DNA of 64,000 nt from positions 62,001 to 126,000 of the forward strand of contig NZ_VWNC01000005.1 of the NCBI RefSeq assembly GCF_013387455.1, given 5' to 3'. The DNA is from Mariprofundus sp. NF. GTDB lineage: Bacteria; Pseudomonadota; Zetaproteobacteria; Mariprofundales; Mariprofundaceae. The position numbers and the translations under genes were made by a program. Every line of letters starts with the position of its first letter. Within the stretch, counting starts at the first letter, position 1. The notes below the pieces were generated by a model, which ran no database searches, was not told the origin of the DNA, and worked only from the letters and a program-made list of their open reading frames with translations. Below are positions 47,225 to 55,277 of this stretch, piece by piece.

Positions 47225-47839
47225 CTAGCGTTGGGGAGAGATTGAACACTGGCCGCGATCCATATTGGGCTCTACCGTGTTATGAATAATTTCACTAAGT
47301 TGATCTGCGCCGCCGATATGGTCTCCATCAACCCAAATCTGGGGAACTGTAATCGGAGTTTTAGCGCCAACGATCGGTTTGACTCTGGCAAGCATCTCAT
47401 ACAGGCCGCGCGGGCTTTCAACGACGTCATGATAGGTGTAATCAATCTTGGCTTTCTCAAGGTATCCCTTAGCGCGCACACAGTGTGGGCACGTTTTTTT
47501 GCCGAAAAGGTGGGTTCCGCTGATCGGCTCTCTGCCCGCATAGGCTTCAATGACTGCCTGAGTCAGAACACCGCGATTTAACGCCGCGCCCTGGCTGATT
47601 ACCTTATTGTTCACAATTACGATGGGAGCATGCCAGCCACCCTTGAACAGAGGCCGCCACCACTCTGTAAGCCACTCCCGCAGCTCCAGCTCTACCGGGA
47701 TTCCCGCCAGTTCCTTCTCGATGGTGTCATGGATTACGTCTTTGGTCAGAGAGCATTCACCACAGGGGATGGTCACCTTGAATGGCCCCCATGCACCGGC
47801 CCAGCGAAATACAGTGACGACTATCGGTTGTTGTTGCAT
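47225..47839 (-). CDS. Thioredoxin-fold/glutaredoxin fusion protein
   Basis: About 204 residues from the ATG at 47839 (AAGGAGAAGAT before it; a longer start at 47857 is less likely). The N-terminal 100 residues are a thioredoxin-like domain with a CGEC motif after KVTIP. The C-terminal 85 residues are a glutaredoxin: FGKKTCPHCVRAKGYLE, the cis-Pro segment ITVPQIWVDG and IGGADQLSEI for glutathione binding. Two redox-active pairs in one chain suggest a glutathione-dependent disulfide relay. It is the last gene of the minus-strand set that includes glutathione reductase, which would supply reduced glutathione. Confidence 0.88.
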   Translation of the reverse strand: MQQQPIVVTVFRWAGAWGPFKVTIPCGECSLTKDVIHDTIEKELAGIPVELELREWLTEWWRPLFKGGWHAPIVIVNNKVISQGAALNRGVLTQAVIEAYAGREPISGTHLFGKKTCPHCVRAKGYLEKAKIDYTYHDVVESPRGLYEMLARVKPIVGAKTPITVPQIWVDGDHIGGADQLSEIIHNTVEPNMDRGQCSISPQR

Positions 47840-47868
47840 ATCTTCTCCTTTGTGCAAGTCATAGCAGT

Positions 47869-49098
47869 TCAGTCAGACTCAATCGGAGCCCTTTTCAGGT
47901 AGGTTTTCAGTAGAAGTGGCTGGATAAACAGTGTTGTCGTCACCACCACAAAGACCAGACAGAGAAAATCCTCCCGATAGGCATATTCAGCGGGGATGGT
48001 CAGCACGAGCGCTGCTGGAATGGCACCACGTAAGCCGCCCAGTGTCAGCACATGCCGCCAGGCCATAGGCCAGCGTCTGCAGGAGGAGACGAACCATGGG
48101 CTGGCATAGATCAGCGCAACCCTTGAGAGAAGCACAATCAGAACGATGCCCGGAATAGCCCAGCTGAGAACAAAGGTGTGTTCACCTATCGCAACACCGA
48201 GCATGAAAAAGACAGTGCTGCCAGCCAGTGTTGCGATGTAGGCCCAGAATGACTGAAAAGCATCGTTACCATCCCGCTTCATCTCTTCACATTTGGTGTA
48301 CCTGCCGCGCACAAATGCCAGGGCAGCAAAGAGAACCGCAATAATGCCGGAGATATGCAGCAGATGTTCTGCCAGCAGGAATGTGCCGTAAGCCAAAACA
48401 ATAGTAAGGGTCAATCCGGTGAACTCATTGCGCACAGACCAGATGACAACCACTTTGGCCGTGACCCATCCCAGTAGCCAGCCAATTGGTGCAGCAGCCA
48501 GTACGATCCAGAGTGTGTCCAGCGCAACAGAAGTAAATGTTACCTGCTGTTCAAACAGGACAAGGCCAGCGATTGTCGTGAACAGGACAATGGCAACGCC
48601 ATCATTAAACAGCGACTCGCCTTCAATAGTCATCAGTAGTTTCTCAGGAATCGAGAAGCGGCGTAACACCACACCTGCAGCCGAAGGATCAGTTGCCGCC
48701 AGAGCTGCACCGAGCAGCAGTCCGTGAATCGGCTCAATACCCATCAACCAGGCGATTGAAAAACCGATCGTAGCAGCAACAAACAGGACGCCAGCAACAG
48801 CAAGATATGCTACAGGATAGGCAACCTGTAACAGACTCTGAATATGTACAGAGCGCCCCTCAGCAAAAATAAGCAGCGGTAGAATCATCAGCATGATCAC
48901 CTCAGGCTGGAATCCGACCGGTGGCAGTAGCGCCAGATGCGGCTGAATTTGCGCATAAACGATACCCACCAGAATGATCCACGCTTCATAGGGCAGGGGT
49001 GTCTTCTGTGTGTAGTGACGAAGGAAGGCCAGCATCAATAGAAACAGACAGCCCAGCAGTACAGCTGTAGCAGGATCAAAAAGGTGAGCGCCGTCCAT
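47869..49098 (-). CDS. CPA1-family Na+(K+)/H+ antiporter
   Basis: A 409-residue, about 12-helix cation/proton antiporter. Key motif: AATDPSAAGVVLRRF, IEGESLFNDGVAIVLF with the acidic ND pair of CPA1, and GGLRGAIPAALVL near the C-terminus. The start is the ATG at 49098 directly behind the gor stop; a longer frame to 49230 lies inside gor. It is between gor and the glutaredoxin fusion. Grouping of a CPA1 antiporter with glutathione enzymes recalls glutathione-gated potassium efflux systems (Kef belongs to CPA2), but a direct link is only suggested. Confidence 0.9.
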   Translation of the reverse strand: MDGAHLFDPATAVLLGCLFLLMLAFLRHYTQKTPLPYEAWIILVGIVYAQIQPHLALLPPVGFQPEVIMLMILPLLIFAEGRSVHIQSLLQVAYPVAYLAVAGVLFVAATIGFSIAWLMGIEPIHGLLLGAALAATDPSAAGVVLRRFSIPEKLLMTIEGESLFNDGVAIVLFTTIAGLVLFEQQVTFTSVALDTLWIVLAAAPIGWLLGWVTAKVVVIWSVRNEFTGLTLTIVLAYGTFLLAEHLLHISGIIAVLFAALAFVRGRYTKCEEMKRDGNDAFQSFWAYIATLAGSTVFFMLGVAIGEHTFVLSWAIPGIVLIVLLSRVALIYASPWFVSSCRRWPMAWRHVLTLGGLRGAIPAALVLTIPAEYAYREDFLCLVFVVVTTTLFIQPLLLKTYLKRAPIESD

Positions 49099-49099
49099 A

Positions 49100-50449
49100 T
49101 TACCGCATTGTAACCAGCTCTTCAGAACTGGTGGGGTGGATGGCAACAGCGCGATCAAAATCCTGCTTGGTTGCACCCATTTTGATAGCCACGGCAAAGC
49201 CCTGCAGCATTTCATCCACATGCATACCAATCATATGACAGCCGATCACTTTTTCCTCGCGGCCCAGACAGATCAGTTTCATGGTGGTTTTCGGCTTCTC
49301 TTCAGCAAATGCGTAGTACATCGGTGTAAACCGTGTCTGATAAATTTTTACCGCATCGCCATGCAGCTCACGCGCCTCATCCTCAGTTTTGCCTATCGTG
49401 GCAATAGGTGGGTGGCTGAATACTACGGTGGGGATATCATCATAGTCCTGTTTGCTGTCGGCATGGTTATCAAACAGTCGCGCTGCCAGCTTGCGTCCGG
49501 CAGCGACTGCTACAGGGGTGAGTTGTGCCCGTCCGGTAATATCACCAATGGCATAGATGCCCGATTGATTCGTATTCTGAAACGCGTCGGTGGGAATCGT
49601 CCCGTTTGCATTCACTTCGATACCGGCGGCATGAAGGTTGAGTTTGTCCGTGGCAGGGCGGCGTCCGATTGCCCAGAGCAGCGCATCAACATGCAGGATT
49701 GTTTCATGATTATTGCACTGAATCTCGATGCAGCCATCGGCAAGTTGGCGCGCCGAAGAGATCTGTGTGTTGGGGATAATATTGATGCCGCTCTCGAGCA
49801 TATGTTCTGTCAAAGCCTCGCGCACGCTCACATCGAAGGGGCGTAGCAGCTGCTGTTTGCGCAACAACATGGTCACTTCTGAGCCCAGTGCATTGAACAT
49901 GCAGGCAATCTCTACTGCGATATAGCCACTGCCGACAATGGCAACACGTTCAGGCCTCTCTTCCAGTGCAAAGAAACCATCGGAGCTGATACCCAGCTCT
50001 GCTCCGGTGATGTCCGGGATGGTGGGATAACCGCCGGTGGCAATAACGATATGCTCAGCACGGTATTGGAGACCTTCGACCTCTATCGTTTTGTCATTAA
50101 TAAAGCTGGCAAACCCATACGCCACATCGACACTGCTGCTATCAAGCAGGCGCCCGTAAACCTCATTGAGATTTTTCACATAGGCATCACGGCGCTGCTT
50201 CAACTTAGACCAGTTAAATTGCCGCTCTCCTACAGCAAACCCATAACCTTCAGCCTGCTCCAGATGGTGATGGATATCCGCTGCATTCCACATCACCTTT
50301 TTCGGCACACAGCCGACATTCACGCAAGTGCCACCAAGGCGACTGGATTCAACCAGCAGGACCTTTGCGCCATATTCAGCCGCACGTCTGGCGGTGGCTA
50401 CACCACCACTGCCGCCACCAATCACTATATAATCGTAATCTGAATTCAT
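49100..50449 (-). CDS. gor: Glutathione-disulfide reductase
   Basis: NADPH-dependent flavoprotein that reduces oxidised glutathione. The 449-residue protein has the FAD fold [22 protein letters not shown], the redox pair C42/C47 in [13 protein letters not shown], an NADP fold [13 protein letters not shown] followed by basic residues, GDIT in [15 protein letters not shown], and the interface motif [13 protein letters not shown] with the active-site histidine. The start at 50449 has CGGAG upstream. Partner gene: glutaredoxin fusion two genes downstream. Motifs fit glutathione better than mercuric or trypanothione reductase. Confidence 0.94.
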
Positions 50450-50459
50450 GTGTTCTCCG

Positions 50460-52112
50460 TTATATGGAACAGACAATATCGCCCATCTTTTCTGTCAGCA
50501 GCATATTCTCGCGGTAGTCGATCGGAATCACAATCAGGCTAGGACCGGACTCGGTAAAGGCCTGTTTCAATGTGTCCTGAAGCTCGACACTCTTCTTAAC
50601 ATGATGGCCATGCCAGCCAAACGATTCGGCTAAAAGCATCCAGTTCGGATTGCCGAAGGCGAGGTCCGTGTGATGACCAAACTCATTCTGCTGTTTCCAG
50701 GCGATCAGACCATAAGCGTTGTCTTCCCAGACCATGACAACGATATTGCTGTTCAGCCGTTTGGCGGTCTCCATCTCCTGCACATTCATCAGAAATCCGG
50801 CATCACCGCAGATAGCGAGAATATTGCGATCCGGATGCACCATGGCTGCGGCAATGGCGCCGGGCAGGGCAAAGCCCATCGAGCAGAAACCGTTAGGGAT
50901 CAGGCAGGTGTTGGGTTCATGGCACTGGTAATAGCGGGCGATCCACATTTTGTGGGCACCGACATCAGAGAGCAGAATATCCTCTGCGCCCATCACAGCT
51001 CTGGCATCAGCCAGCACCTTCTGTGGCCGGATCAGACCTTCGGTCTCATCATCAGCATACTCCAGCAACTGGCGCTGCATCTCAGCTCTTGTCGCGCTCT
51101 GTTGTGAGAGGTTGCGCTGCACCGCCCCGAGCGTGTCGATGTTGTCATTGATGGTGGCCAGCGTATGGGCCAGATCACCCACCAGCTCCAGCTCCGGATG
51201 ATACTGCTGATCAATTTCCGCAGGCATGAAATCAATATGGATAATCTGTTTGTCCTTCTCTTTGTTCCATAGACGAGGGTGATACTCCACCATGTCATAT
51301 CCCAGGGTGATGACCAGATCAGCGGCATCCAGTGCGCAGGAAACCACATCTTTGGCCTGCAGGCCGATGGTATAGAGGCAGTAATCCGCATCCATATCGA
51401 CACAGCCTTTGGCCATGAAAGTGTTGATCACACCAATGCCTGTGGTTTCACAAAAACGACGCAACTCAGCACTGGCACGTCGACGAATGCAGCCGTTGCC
51501 GGCCAGAATGATGGGCCGTTTGGCAGCCCGTAACATCGTAAATGCCTTGTCGATCTGCTCAGGATCAGCGACCGGTCGGCGATAGCGGTGTGGTGTCATT
51601 GGTTTTGCATCCGTATCGATCTTGGCAATGTCTTCAGGTAGTTCGATAAGGCAGGCGCCGGGTTTTTCACTGCGTGCCAGACGCACGGCTTTGCGCACAA
51701 TTTCAGGTACAGAAGCCGGATGCAGAATGGTGGTGGCCCATTTGGTGACCGGTTTAAACATCGCCACCACATCCATGATCTGGTGCGACTCCTTATGCAG
51801 TCGTGTAGATGCACCCTGACCGGTCAGCACAATCATCGGGGCGCGATCCATATTGGCATCGGCAACACCGGTAATCAGATTGGTGGCTCCCGGACCCAGC
51901 GTGCCGAGACAACCTGCAGGGGTGCCGGTCAGGCGGCCATACACCTCGGCCATAAAGGCCGCGCCCTGCTCATGGCGGGTGAGAATAAATTTGATGGCGT
52001 CCGATTGCTCCAGCGCCATCATGAAGTCGGCATTCTCCTCGCCGGGGATGCCGAAAATATATTCGATACCCTCCTCTTCGAGGCAGGCTACAAGCAATTC
52101 CGATGTTTTCAT
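50460..52112 (-). CDS. Acetolactate synthase-like TPP enzyme (AlsS-type, large subunit only)
   Basis: A 550-residue thiamin-diphosphate enzyme. The N-terminal domain opens [15 protein letters not shown] with the catalytic Glu in [17 protein letters not shown]; the middle FAD-like domain follows; and the TPP-binding domain has [19 protein letters not shown] then DNAYGLI, where the usual GDG is GDA. It resembles catabolic acetolactate synthases and relatives, joining pyruvates with loss of CO2. No regulatory small subunit (ilvN) is next to it, supporting a non-anabolic role. It overlaps the aldehyde dehydrogenase gene by 4 bases. A different alpha-keto-acid substrate is possible. Confidence 0.88.
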
Positions 52113-53560
52113 GACAGGCCTCCTGATTGAATCACAATCATTTTTTCAATTTGCATGTCGTGCATGGTGTAGGGGATGCCGCCAACCCCAAGGCCTGACC
52201 TTCTCAACCCTGCAAATGGCATCCAGTCGACACGAAATGCGGTGTGGTCATTAATCATCACGGCTGAGGCGGCAAGTCGGTTGGCGGCATAGAGAGCCGT
52301 ATCAATATCACGGCTGAATACCGAAGCCTGAAATGCAACATCAAGTGAATTGGCAATCTCAATGGCTCTATCGATATCCTCATAGGGGTAGATGCAGACC
52401 ACCGGGCCAAAGATCTCTTTGGTGGAGACGTTGACATCAAGCGGGGGACTGAAAATCACCGTTGGCGCATAGCAGTTGTTTTCAAGCCTGTTGCCACCAC
52501 ACATGAGGTCGGCTTCTGCTGCTACCGCCTGCTGAACCCACTGATGCACACGTTCCGCCTCTTTTTCACGGATCAGAGGCCCGACTTCTGTTTTGTCTGA
52601 TAGCGGGTCACCGACCACCAACGCGACTGCGGCATCCTTTATCTTCTCAGCAAGCGCTTTGGCGATGGACTTGTGTGCAAAAATCCGTTGCACGGAAACA
52701 CAGACCTGTCCGGCATGATAAAATGCACCTTTCATCAGGCTGGGCAGTATCCGGTCGATATCGGCATCGGCGGCTACAATGACCGGAGCTGCACCACCAT
52801 GCTCCAGTGCACATCGGGTGCCTGCTGCCAGTTTGGAACGCAGATACCAGCCCACGCCGGGGCTGCCGATAAAGCTGAAAAATGCCACACGTTCATCGCT
52901 CACCAGCTCTTCCGACAGTTCTCTCGACTCCGGCATAACAAACTGACACCAGCCATCAGGCAGGCCAGCTTCAGAAAATAGTTTCACCAGACGAATGCAT
53001 GAGAGCGGGGTATCTGCAGCCGGTTTGACGATGACCGGACAGCCTGTGGCGATGGCCGGACCAATCTGATGTGCGATCAGGTTCAACGGATGGTTGAAGG
53101 CACTGACAGCCACCACGACCCCGATGGGCTCTTTAGAGGTGACAGCAAGGCGTCCTGCCGATGCTGCATTGCTGCCCATGGGGATGGATTCGCCTGCATG
53201 CGTGCGTAACTCATGGATACAGATATTGATGCTGTCGATACAGCGAACCATCTCAATGCGGGAATCAAGCAATGGCTTGCCGCCTTCACGAGCTGCTTCA
53301 ACTGCCAGCGCTTCAGCCCGATCACTCATCAGATCCACGGCCTTTTCGAGGATGGCGATGCGTTGTGGTTGCGTTAACCAGCCATTACGCTTTTCAAACA
53401 GTGCTCTGGCATTGAGGAGCGCCTGCTCAACCGATTTGGCGTTGGCCATCGTAACCGTTGCAATCAGAGAGCCATCATAGGGGGAGAAAACCTCCAGAGC
53501 TTTACCATCTGTTTGGAGGGAGCCTGGAATCATCAAGGGGAAATGTTCGATATTATTCAT
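52109..53560 (-). CDS. NAD(P)+-dependent aldehyde dehydrogenase
   Basis: A 483-residue enzyme of the aldehyde dehydrogenase superfamily. Catalytic residues line up: Asn156 in SAFNHPLN, Glu253 in ALEHGG, Cys287 in GQVCVSV, with FSFIGSPGVG for the cofactor and EIFGPVVCI. Substrate is not deduced; the family includes lactaldehyde, succinate-semialdehyde and glyceraldehyde dehydrogenases. It overlaps by 4 bases with both neighbours, so it is translated together with the FMN-binding glutamate-synthase-like protein and the acetolactate-synthase-like enzyme, implying one short pathway. Confidence 0.92.
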   Translation of the reverse strand: MNNIEHFPLMIPGSLQTDGKALEVFSPYDGSLIATVTMANAKSVEQALLNARALFEKRNGWLTQPQRIAILEKAVDLMSDRAEALAVEAAREGGKPLLDSRIEMVRCIDSINICIHELRTHAGESIPMGSNAASAGRLAVTSKEPIGVVVAVSAFNHPLNLIAHQIGPAIATGCPVIVKPAADTPLSCIRLVKLFSEAGLPDGWCQFVMPESRELSEELVSDERVAFFSFIGSPGVGWYLRSKLAAGTRCALEHGGAAPVIVAADADIDRILPSLMKGAFYHAGQVCVSVQRIFAHKSIAKALAEKIKDAAVALVVGDPLSDKTEVGPLIREKEAERVHQWVQQAVAAEADLMCGGNRLENNCYAPTVIFSPPLDVNVSTKEIFGPVVCIYPYEDIDRAIEIANSLDVAFQASVFSRDIDTALYAANRLAASAVMINDHTAFRVDWMPFAGLRRSGLGVGGIPYTMHDMQIEKMIVIQSGGLS

Positions 53561-55077
53561 GTTTGCTCCTGTGGTTTTCCATGCGGATAACCCTCAATGG
53601 TTTCAGGATGGCGTATGTGCAGGCCAGTGCTGCTGCCTTCGCCTGTAACCACGCGGGCATGTCTGCGCTGTAGCTGGCGGGGATGCTTAACGCCGCAGGA
53701 GTGGGCAATCACACCGACATCATGCTGGATATGATTTGCATAGTGATGCACACGCACCGCTTTATCTGTCGGATCAAGTCCGCGCTGCAACCGTTTCTGG
53801 TGGGTAGTGATGCCGGTCGGGCAGCTGTTTTTGTTACACTGCATGGCCTGAATGCAGCCGAGTGCAAACATGAAACCGCGTGCTGAGACGATAAAATCTG
53901 CCCCCATGCAGAGTGCCCATGCGATACCTGAGGGGGTGATCAGTTTACCTGAGCAGATGACGCGTACCCGATCGCGCAAGCCATAACCGACCAGATGATC
54001 AATCAGCATTGGCAGGCTCTCTTTCAGGGGCAGTCCCATGAAATCCATCAAGGGTTGAGGGGCGGCACCTGTACCACCATCGGAGCTATCGAGGGTGATA
54101 AAGTCGGGGGCGCTCTCAACACCACGTTCTTTGATCGCATCAAAGAGATTATCGAGCACATTACAGCCGCCAATCACCAGTTTGATACCGACCGGTTTGC
54201 CGGTGACTTCGCGAACACGTGCAATCATATCCAGCAACTGGCCGGGATTGTCGATATCTACATGGCGGTTGGGGCTGATCGAATCTTCACCTTGCGGGAT
54301 GCCGCGAATGGTGGCGATTTCAGCCGTCACCTTGGCCGCTGGTAGAATGCCGCCTTTACCCGGCTTGGCACCCTGACTGAGCTTGATCTCAAACATGCGC
54401 ACCTGTTCGATGGCTGCCAGTTCGCGCAAGCGATCATCAGAGAGTTCACCCTTCTCGTCGCGTACGCCATATTTGGCAGTGCCGATCTGCATGACAATAT
54501 CGCAACCGCCTTCAAGATGGTAAGGGGAGAGCCCACCCTCTCCTGTATTCATCCAGCAGCCAGCTTTGGCAGCGCCGTTTGAAAGTGCCTGCACGGCTAC
54601 TTTGGAGATCGCTCCGTAACTCATGCCTGAGATGTTGAAGAAACTTGTTGCCGTATACGGGGTTCGGCAACCGGTACCGATAACCATAGGCTCTGTCTCT
54701 GCCGCATCGACATCCAGTGTGGGGTAGGGGCAGTTTACAAAGGAGATACTGCCAGCCGGGCTGAGATCTCGGGTAGAGCCGAACGGGATGGTATTGTCCT
54801 CATTCTTGGCCGCCCGGTAGACCCACTCGCGCAGGGCCCGGTTAAACGGCATCTCCTCGCGATCCATGGCAAAGAAGTATTGGCGGAAGAAGGTACCGAG
54901 ATGTTCAAACAGGCCGCGAAACCGACCAATCACCGGATAATTACGGCGAACGGCATAGCGGGTCTGGGTGATATCGATGATAAACAGTATGATCACCGTG
55001 ATGATCAACAGGCTGAATGCAATCAGCAGTAGTGCGGAGAGTCCTGTATAAAATGTATCAATATAGTCACTGAGCAT
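53557..55077 (-). CDS. Membrane-anchored FMN-binding glutamate synthase family protein
   Basis: A 506-residue protein with a membrane helix at about 13-36 (ALLLIAFSLLIITVIILFI) and a soluble TIM-barrel domain like the synthase domain of glutamate synthase. Landmarks are GCRTPYTATSFFNISGMSYGAIS, NTGEGGLSPYHLEGG, QGAKPGKGG, LDSSDGGTGAAPQPL and the [3Fe-4S] cysteines in CIQAMQCNKNSCPTG (C-x5-C-x4-C). There is no glutaminase domain, so it cannot by itself use glutamine. Such stand-alone members are widespread with no known substrate. First gene of the minus-strand set; its stop overlaps the aldehyde dehydrogenase start by 4 bases. Confidence 0.9.
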   Translation of the reverse strand: MLSDYIDTFYTGLSALLLIAFSLLIITVIILFIIDITQTRYAVRRNYPVIGRFRGLFEHLGTFFRQYFFAMDREEMPFNRALREWVYRAAKNEDNTIPFGSTRDLSPAGSISFVNCPYPTLDVDAAETEPMVIGTGCRTPYTATSFFNISGMSYGAISKVAVQALSNGAAKAGCWMNTGEGGLSPYHLEGGCDIVMQIGTAKYGVRDEKGELSDDRLRELAAIEQVRMFEIKLSQGAKPGKGGILPAAKVTAEIATIRGIPQGEDSISPNRHVDIDNPGQLLDMIARVREVTGKPVGIKLVIGGCNVLDNLFDAIKERGVESAPDFITLDSSDGGTGAAPQPLMDFMGLPLKESLPMLIDHLVGYGLRDRVRVICSGKLITPSGIAWALCMGADFIVSARGFMFALGCIQAMQCNKNSCPTGITTHQKRLQRGLDPTDKAVRVHHYANHIQHDVGVIAHSCGVKHPRQLQRRHARVVTGEGSSTGLHIRHPETIEGYPHGKPQEQT

Positions 55078-55177
55078 ATCTTCCCCTACAGGCTAGTGCG
55101 CCGGATAGAAGGTATGTCTTGCTAAGGCAGCTTTTCTTACAAAGTGAAACACGCGTTGCATGAGAGACTGTTGTTTC

Positions 55178-55194
55178 TGAATGAGAATGATTTA
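55178..55194 (-). promoter_or_regulatory. Fur-box-like site in front of the redox operon
   Basis: TGAATGAGAATGATTTA lies about 100 bases upstream of the FMN-binding glutamate-synthase-like gene, in the divergent gap to the aminotransferase. It contains the repeated GAATGA/GAATGA units and AATGATT core seen in Fur-type boxes, but only about two of the three expected hexamers are good. No matching promoter assigned. Confidence 0.3.
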
Positions 55195-55277
55195 CCCTTC
55201 CTTGACCGTAATAGGCCTGCTTCGTAGTCTCGGCAATCCTTTTACAGGTTACCTTTCAGCGGAGAAAAACCTTATTC

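Follow-up and report, generated by a model that had tools for sequence, protein, structure and literature searches.

The 64,000-nucleotide stretch of the Mariprofundus sp. NF genome analyzed here (the window; the assembly measures 2.53 Mb) carries on its minus strand, between positions 47225 and 55077, six open reading frames (ORFs), the first three of which encode a protein resembling glutamate synthase (GltS-like), an aldehyde dehydrogenase (ALDH), and a thiamine diphosphate (ThDP)-dependent enzyme annotated as acetolactate synthase (ALS). We propose, with a probability of about 0.6, that this gltS-like/ALDH/ALS core encodes a route from glutamate and 2-oxoglutarate to succinate. In the first step, the GltS-like protein (P0001) would interconvert glutamate and 2-oxoglutarate (plus NH3) without glutaminase activity, possibly with a membrane carrier such as quinone as its electron partner. 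In the second, for which there is residue evidence, the ThDP enzyme (P0003) would convert 2-oxoglutarate to succinic semialdehyde and CO2, and in the third, suggested by similarity and residue evidence, the ALDH (P0002) would convert succinic semialdehyde to succinate, yielding NAD(P)H. The core comprises the following genes:

53557 to 55077, minus strand: P0001 (506 amino acids [aa]), a stand-alone GltS-type flavin mononucleotide (FMN)/3Fe-4S domain with a single membrane helix at the N terminus, proposed oxidoreductase of glutamate/2-oxoglutarate; PF01645 (292 bits) as its sole Pfam domain, an AlphaFold match, and invariant E180, K238, R258, and three cysteines.
52109 to 53560, minus strand: P0002 (483 aa), an aldehyde dehydrogenase resembling ALDH21, for which we propose the function of a succinic semialdehyde dehydrogenase (SSADH); Pfam Aldedh, ALDH21 (5mz5) as nearest solved chain, and conserved residues.
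50460 to 52112, minus strand: P0003 (550 aa), the ThDP enzyme annotated as ALS, proposed 2-oxoglutarate decarboxylase; Pfam TPP_enzyme N/M/C, active-site residues of the Microcystis enzyme, and a pocket unlike those of AlsS, IlvB, IlvG, and Gcl.

P0003 has the N, M, and C domains of a ThDP enzyme, and the putative SSADH gene lies in the same predicted operon. On the basis of its residues, P0003 is most likely a 2-oxoglutarate decarboxylase (OgdA/KGD) and not an ALS. Li et al. (2023; PMC10418658) name the residues that surround 2-oxoglutarate and ThDP in Microcystis KGD (MaKGD), and P0003 carries 15 of the 17 active-site residues published there, including Lys386 and Lys471. In particular, between Val382 and Tyr531, P0003 agrees at 13 of 15 sites at a constant offset of +2, and Glu50 and Gln254 are matched at an offset of -2. 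Five of the six contacts with 2-oxoglutarate (Q254, V382, K386, A408, L467, and K471), which the same source derives from docking, are present, A408 being Cys. In the solved AlsS chains, the Lys386 site is occupied by Tyr, Ala, or His and the Lys471 site by Gln. Furthermore, in a set of 52 homologous ORFs, the pocket motif is V-A-H-K in 36, V-S-H-K in 2 (haloarchaeal), and N-x-Y-K in 11 (Leisingera type), with 1 truncated; IlvB of this genome and another of its ThDP enzymes, which complete the set, have neither pocket motif. In a tree of 25 rows with some long branches, AlsS, Gcl, IlvG, and IlvB fall apart from the P0003 group. As a side observation, a further locus of this genome (L133; G000:C11:8000-24000) has a second ThDP enzyme tightly spaced after two ORFs that look by eye like citrate synthases.

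It would be very improbable that P0003 is a true catabolic ALS, serving pyruvate overflow or acid stress beside an unrelated ALDH. NCBIfam does assign this name to it (PRK08322, 744 bits with a cutoff of 509), and its best solved relatives by phmmer are AlsS; with AlsS/BudB it shares the overall fold and, in the case of the Pantoea AlsS, about 35% identity. However, the AlsS models TIGR02418 (469 versus 551 bits) and NF006378 (509.2 versus 510 bits) stay below their cutoffs, and the pocket, which reads F-H...Y-x-M-x3-Q in Pantoea AlsS, reads H-K...Y-x-L-x3-K in P0003. Moreover, its partner is an ALDH, and no acetolactate decarboxylase was found by Pfam among the other five genes, whereas the alsS of Pantoea, taken as a control, follows budA. 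Judged by score and by an adjacent small subunit, P0003 does not qualify as a biosynthetic acetohydroxyacid synthase either (TIGR00118, 389.7 bits with a cutoff of 538); the true one of this genome lies elsewhere (the C4 copy), reaches 830 bits with the same model, and is followed by a 165-aa ORF recognized by eye as the small subunit.

A different chemistry would be carboligation, in which P0003 joins 2-oxoglutarate or another 2-oxo-dicarboxylate to an acceptor, the ALDH acting on the product or on another aldehyde. The enzyme belongs to the same superfamily, Rv1248c of Mycobacterium tuberculosis uses 2-oxoglutarate with glyoxylate according to PMC10418658, and both pocket lysines are retained, even in most of the Leisingera-type enzymes. 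However, the recurrent partner is an SSADH-like gene and no acceptor-making enzyme is conserved alongside, and we regard carboligation as distinctly unlikely compared with the decarboxylation of 2-oxoglutarate.

The closest solved relative of P0002 is ALDH21 (5mz5), an enzyme that in Physcomitrella is an NADP+-dependent SSADH, as stated in PMC7823795. Residues R106, R443, C287, and E253 of P0002 are kept in 31 of 31 relatives with at least 48% identity (two further rows of the alignment are the window's own copy). We take R106 and R443, which stand at the positions of R121 and R457 of ALDH21, to bind the carboxylate of the substrate. The nearest solved relative, the two arginines in this presumed role, and the catalytic Cys and Glu are all those of an ALDH21-type SSADH, and we propose this function for P0002; the score with the NCBIfam SSADH model is below the cutoff (TIGR01780, 285 versus 646 bits).

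As the earlier note had described it, P0001 is a membrane-anchored GltS-like protein with C-x5-C-x4-C ligands and without a glutaminase domain, and the helix, the alignments, and Pfam agree on this. The Glu_synthase FMN domain is its only Pfam match, a single strong hydrophobic segment lies near the N terminus (approximately residues 13 to 36), and Cys408-x5-Cys414-x4-Cys419 is invariant in relatives. In alignments of 15 and 26 sequences, Glu180, Lys238, and Arg258 are invariant together with the three cysteines; from the alignment with solved enzymes, we take Glu180 to be the catalytic glutamate and Lys238 and Arg258 to bind 2-oxoglutarate. The AlphaFold model (mean pLDDT of 81) has glutamate synthases as its seven best PDB matches (TMq of 0.60 to 0.64), followed by alpha-hydroxy-acid oxidases, which are weaker by about nine orders of magnitude. 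P0001 thus combines the FMN-barrel fold and the 3Fe-4S cysteines, and it shares with the FMN domain of the glutamate synthase (GOGAT) large subunit the fold, the FMN-site motifs, and the C-x5-C-x4-C ligands. It differs from that subunit in lacking the glutaminase domain, in its length of about 500 aa, and in its N-terminal membrane helix, and it is not itself such a large subunit (PF01645 only; NF008730, 122 versus 1047 bits); a full-length GltB-type ORF of 1558 aa is found elsewhere in the genome. Since the catalytic motifs of glutamate synthase are kept, it is plausible that P0001 acts at the glutamate/2-oxoglutarate step. More tentatively, and with the odds clearly against so specific a version, P0001 may be a respiratory glutamate dehydrogenase of a new kind that passes electrons through FMN and 3Fe-4S to the quinone pool and feeds 2-oxoglutarate directly to the decarboxylase and SSADH, in which case neither CoA nor lipoate nor 2-oxoglutarate dehydrogenase would be needed to oxidize glutamate to succinate. 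Another locus of this genome (L134; G000:C2:96000-110000) contains a second stand-alone GltS-domain ORF of 538 aa with a Rieske-like start, followed by an MsrA-like ORF, both named by eye.

The GltS-ALDH-ALS core is a conserved unit. Among 299 genomes of the phylum, GltS homologs (taken at 1e-60) occur in 100 and form a close group (at least 55% identity) and an outer group (39 to 46%). Within the taxonomic order of the window, the three genes directly adjoin one another in an unchanged sequence at 10 loci including the window (the others being L037, L038, L039, L040, L043, L044, L046, L047, and L075, of which L039 and L075 are truncated by contig ends), so that the core could be recovered from other genomes, as the earlier note had suggested looking for. 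At three more loci (L041, L042, and L045), GltS-ALDH runs up to the contig end, and the trio is present in another gene order at L147, L172, L034, and L035, in distant Gamma- and Alphaproteobacteria. In the genus, all eight genomes with a GltS of at least 77% identity have both ALS and ALDH, versus one with ALS and two with ALDH among the other 15 (Fisher P values of 2e-5 and 9e-5, respectively, for genomes that are related and not independent). ALDH-ALS pairs without GltS occur at L097 and L100. In the Leisingera plasmids (L034 and L035), the order is GltS-ALS-ALDH; agmatinase and LysR genes precede the trio, and one of the two plasmids also has a RidA gene. Arginine/agmatine catabolism, considered on account of this agmatinase, is kept as a lead only, given that the two lysines of the pocket point to a substrate that is acidic.

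The genomic contexts of related ThDP genes point to the same metabolites. On plasmids of Sulfitobacter and Dinoroseobacter, gdhA directly precedes a ThDP gene whose product falls into the same clade (61% and 43% identity, respectively), so that a glutamate/2-oxoglutarate enzyme is again the neighbor; different from the window, these pairs have glutamate dehydrogenase instead of a GltS-like protein, and the two stretches show no ALDH. On plasmids of Haloarcula and Halorarius, an SSADH-annotated gene precedes the ThDP gene with a 4-base overlap, and on a Streptomyces plasmid a GltS-like gene follows it. The plasmid regions opened in Octadecabacter, Agrobacterium, Roseomonas, Halorussus, and Ruegeria have no glutamate enzyme beside the ThDP gene, Ruegeria having the ALDH, and there was no cyanobacterial anchor sequence among the plasmid rows listed. 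Around the core itself, within the genus of the window, glnA follows in L038, L040 (behind gor), and L043, with glnE next in L038, and nadE precedes it in L038, L042, and L043; Pfam confirmed glnA in L040, glnE in L038, and nadE in L043, the other glnA and nadE calls being made by eye. Furthermore, SucA has no match in 8 of the 10 sampled genomes with a KGD homolog of 50 to 53% identity, versus 39 of the other 289, where in five of the eight the absence is deduced from the match list and most of the eight belong to two families and are not independent. Such a distribution would be expected if the enzyme is able to take the place of SucA.

The neighborhoods of GltS relatives are less uniform. 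In the best 80 named loci, a set that may lack close relatives of the window, ALS or ALDH stands beside GltS in nine (L136, L139, L146, L147, L148, L150, L172, L193, and L202), with both in L147 and L172, and a CPA antiporter in nine. At 20 outer-group loci, taken as a negative control, neither ALS nor an antiporter was found, and there was one weak ALDH (26%); despite this, an outer-clade GltS (41%) adjoins ALS on the Streptomyces plasmid. Over 102 GltS-relative loci, the neighbors include DoxX (8), MNIO/DUF692 (7), MsrP (7), and DUF2063 (5), mostly named by eye, and antiporters beside GltS at 10 of the 102 clustered loci, on the same strand in all. A set of MNIO (MbnB/TglH/ChrH), DUF2063, and DoxX, which we take to be a Bufferin-type operon, stands beside GltS relatives in L135, L149, L059, L145, L152, and others, in some cases with a CPA antiporter. 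An MsrP-like gene follows the GltS-like gene in L058, L063, L066, L067, L204, L205, and L214, in five of them together with an MsrQ-like gene; the named loci of this set are of Rhodobacteraceae type, and the molybdopterin domain was confirmed in L063.

It is possible to imagine from these placements that the GltS-like protein is a membrane-bound oxidoreductase of oxidative or metal stress with a substrate other than glutamate, its proximity to KGD and SSADH being one of several stress-regulon placements. The same-clade neighbors MNIO/DUF2063/DoxX, MsrP/MsrQ, OsmC-hydrolase with glutaredoxin, and CPA antiporters speak for it, whereas the glutamate-synthase FMN-site motifs are invariant and gdhA occupies the equivalent position beside related ThDP genes; we consider it unlikely. 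As for the redox set described in the earlier note, a direct link to thiols is weak, and an indirect one remains, GltS relatives being often near genes of redox or metal stress such as MsrP/MsrQ, OsmC, MNIO/DoxX, and antiporters.

Besides the NCBIfam name of P0003, several observations weigh against the proposed route from glutamate to succinate. Two of the 17 MaKGD sites differ in P0003 (Ala408 to Cys and Gly436 to Ala). The comparison was made by the residue numbers given in the source, which derived its contacts by modeling and docking and mutated only some of the sites. The solved chain 13bb, named just acetolactate synthase, also carries Lys at the Lys471 site and has Met where KGD has Lys386. 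The Leisingera-type ThDP enzyme, partnered with the same GltS and ALDH, has an altered pocket (N-I-Y-K), and because of this difference the substrate of the Leisingera trio may not be the same. In P0001, the glutamine that we take to be another 2-oxoglutarate contact of GltS is replaced with isoleucine. Two haloarchaeal SSADH-annotated genes are only 29 to 30% identical to P0002 and lack both arginines. No ALS or ALDH stands beside GltS in 71 of the best 80 named loci, and GltS therefore works elsewhere too; the contrast between 9 of 80 of these loci and 0 of 20 outer-clade loci is not significant (P = 0.20). Finally, the genome encodes a normal 2-oxoglutarate dehydrogenase E1 (SucA, 1137 bits). 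Since SucA is present, no gap in the tricarboxylic acid (TCA) cycle needs filling, and gap filling was rejected for this genome; the module would be a parallel bypass and not the sole link of the cycle.

The earlier note had spoken of an undescribed pathway acting on a keto acid and an aldehyde. The keto acid and the aldehyde would find their counterparts in 2-oxoglutarate and succinic semialdehyde, but the chemistry is not undescribed, because both soluble enzymes have their equivalents in the OgdA/SsaD bypass of cyanobacteria (e.g., SYNPCC7002_A2770-A2771), with which the window shares the two-gene unit of ThDP decarboxylase and SSADH and the active-site residues of the decarboxylase. The cyanobacterial ogdA ssaD pair is an operon according to PMC5160925. 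Different from that pair, which is written ogdA ssaD, the window has the SSADH-like gene first, a membrane GltS-like leader gene, and a 2-oxoglutarate dehydrogenase in the genome. Our literature search found no paper joining Zetaproteobacteria with acetolactate synthase, and two in which they occur together with 2-oxoglutarate dehydrogenase.

Downstream of the core, and upstream of it in the case of the last element, the region contains the following features:

49100 to 50449, minus strand: P0004 (449 aa), glutathione reductase (gor); Pfam pyridine nucleotide-disulphide oxidoreductase; TIGR01421, 649.7 bits with a cutoff of 556.
47869 to 49098, minus strand: P0005, cation:proton antiporter of CPA1 type; PF00999 (Na_H_Exchanger).
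47225 to 47839, minus strand: a protein with an unassigned N-terminal domain and a C-terminal glutaredoxin domain (CPHC); PF00462 (Glutaredoxin).
55177 to 55195, plus strand: Fur-box-like sequence; 12 of 19 consensus matches, indistinguishable from background.

All six genes are confirmed at their stated positions, with ORF coordinates that agree with the 4-base overlaps among the first three and the short gaps thereafter given in the earlier note. From the GltS-like gene to the glutaredoxin fusion, the overlaps and gaps are -4, -4, +10, +1, and +29 bases, the antiporter start at ATG 49098 leaving 1 base after gor, and this spacing suggests that the six genes may be transcribed jointly. Of the related loci whose sequence extends beyond the core (L037, L038, L040, L043, L047, and L075), only L040 has gor directly after ALS. 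Homologs of the glutaredoxin fusion occur in six other genomes of the 299; in four of the six loci, which were fetched, tblastn found none of the other five cluster genes nearby, and in three of these four it adjoins a gene for a DMT-type transporter or genes of sulfate assimilation, as named by eye. The glutaredoxin fusion is probably a chance neighbor, and a thiol module was rejected, as the gor and glutaredoxin homologs mapped in relatives are not conserved with the core. The gor, antiporter, and glutaredoxin genes may be downstream passengers or may be served indirectly (reductant, pH). Elsewhere, NhaA-like antiporter ORFs, named by eye, lie close to a KGD or ALDH gene in L103, L123, and L127, and in Halorarius (L220), which offers a second redox neighborhood, genes for DsbA, two redoxins, and a GST-N protein come after the SSADH-KGD pair.

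Iron control had been suggested by a Fur-box-like sequence upstream. The site at 55178 to 55194 is an ordinary one: when the 64-kb window is scanned with a 19-position Fur consensus, 12 matches are reached at 106 sites, 13 at 31, and 14 at 2, the expectation from first-order Markov resampling being 53.6, 10.5, and 2.2, respectively. The site therefore carries no weight, and Fur regulation of the cluster was rejected. It is extremely unlikely that an undescribed, iron-controlled keto acid/aldehyde pathway is coupled to thiol balance through gor and glutaredoxin. The presence of gor behind the core both here and in L040, of a gor-like gene (42%) behind GltS in L061, and of redoxin genes behind the KGD/SSADH pair of Halorarius would favor it; however, the Fur site is at chance level, the glutaredoxin fusion is not syntenic, and gor was not found behind the core in L037, L038, L043, L047, and L075. 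The thiol-balance link is thus weak, with gor after the core at one other locus and the glutaredoxin fusion lying elsewhere in relatives.

Cyanobacteria are the best-known case of a bypass through 2-oxoglutarate decarboxylase. If our proposal for the core is true, a gene commonly annotated as "acetolactate synthase large subunit" would encode this decarboxylase in haloarchaea and in several lineages of proteobacteria, which would correct reconstructions of the TCA cycle, and there would be a testable substrate for the "FMN-binding glutamate synthase family protein," which is widespread but unstudied.

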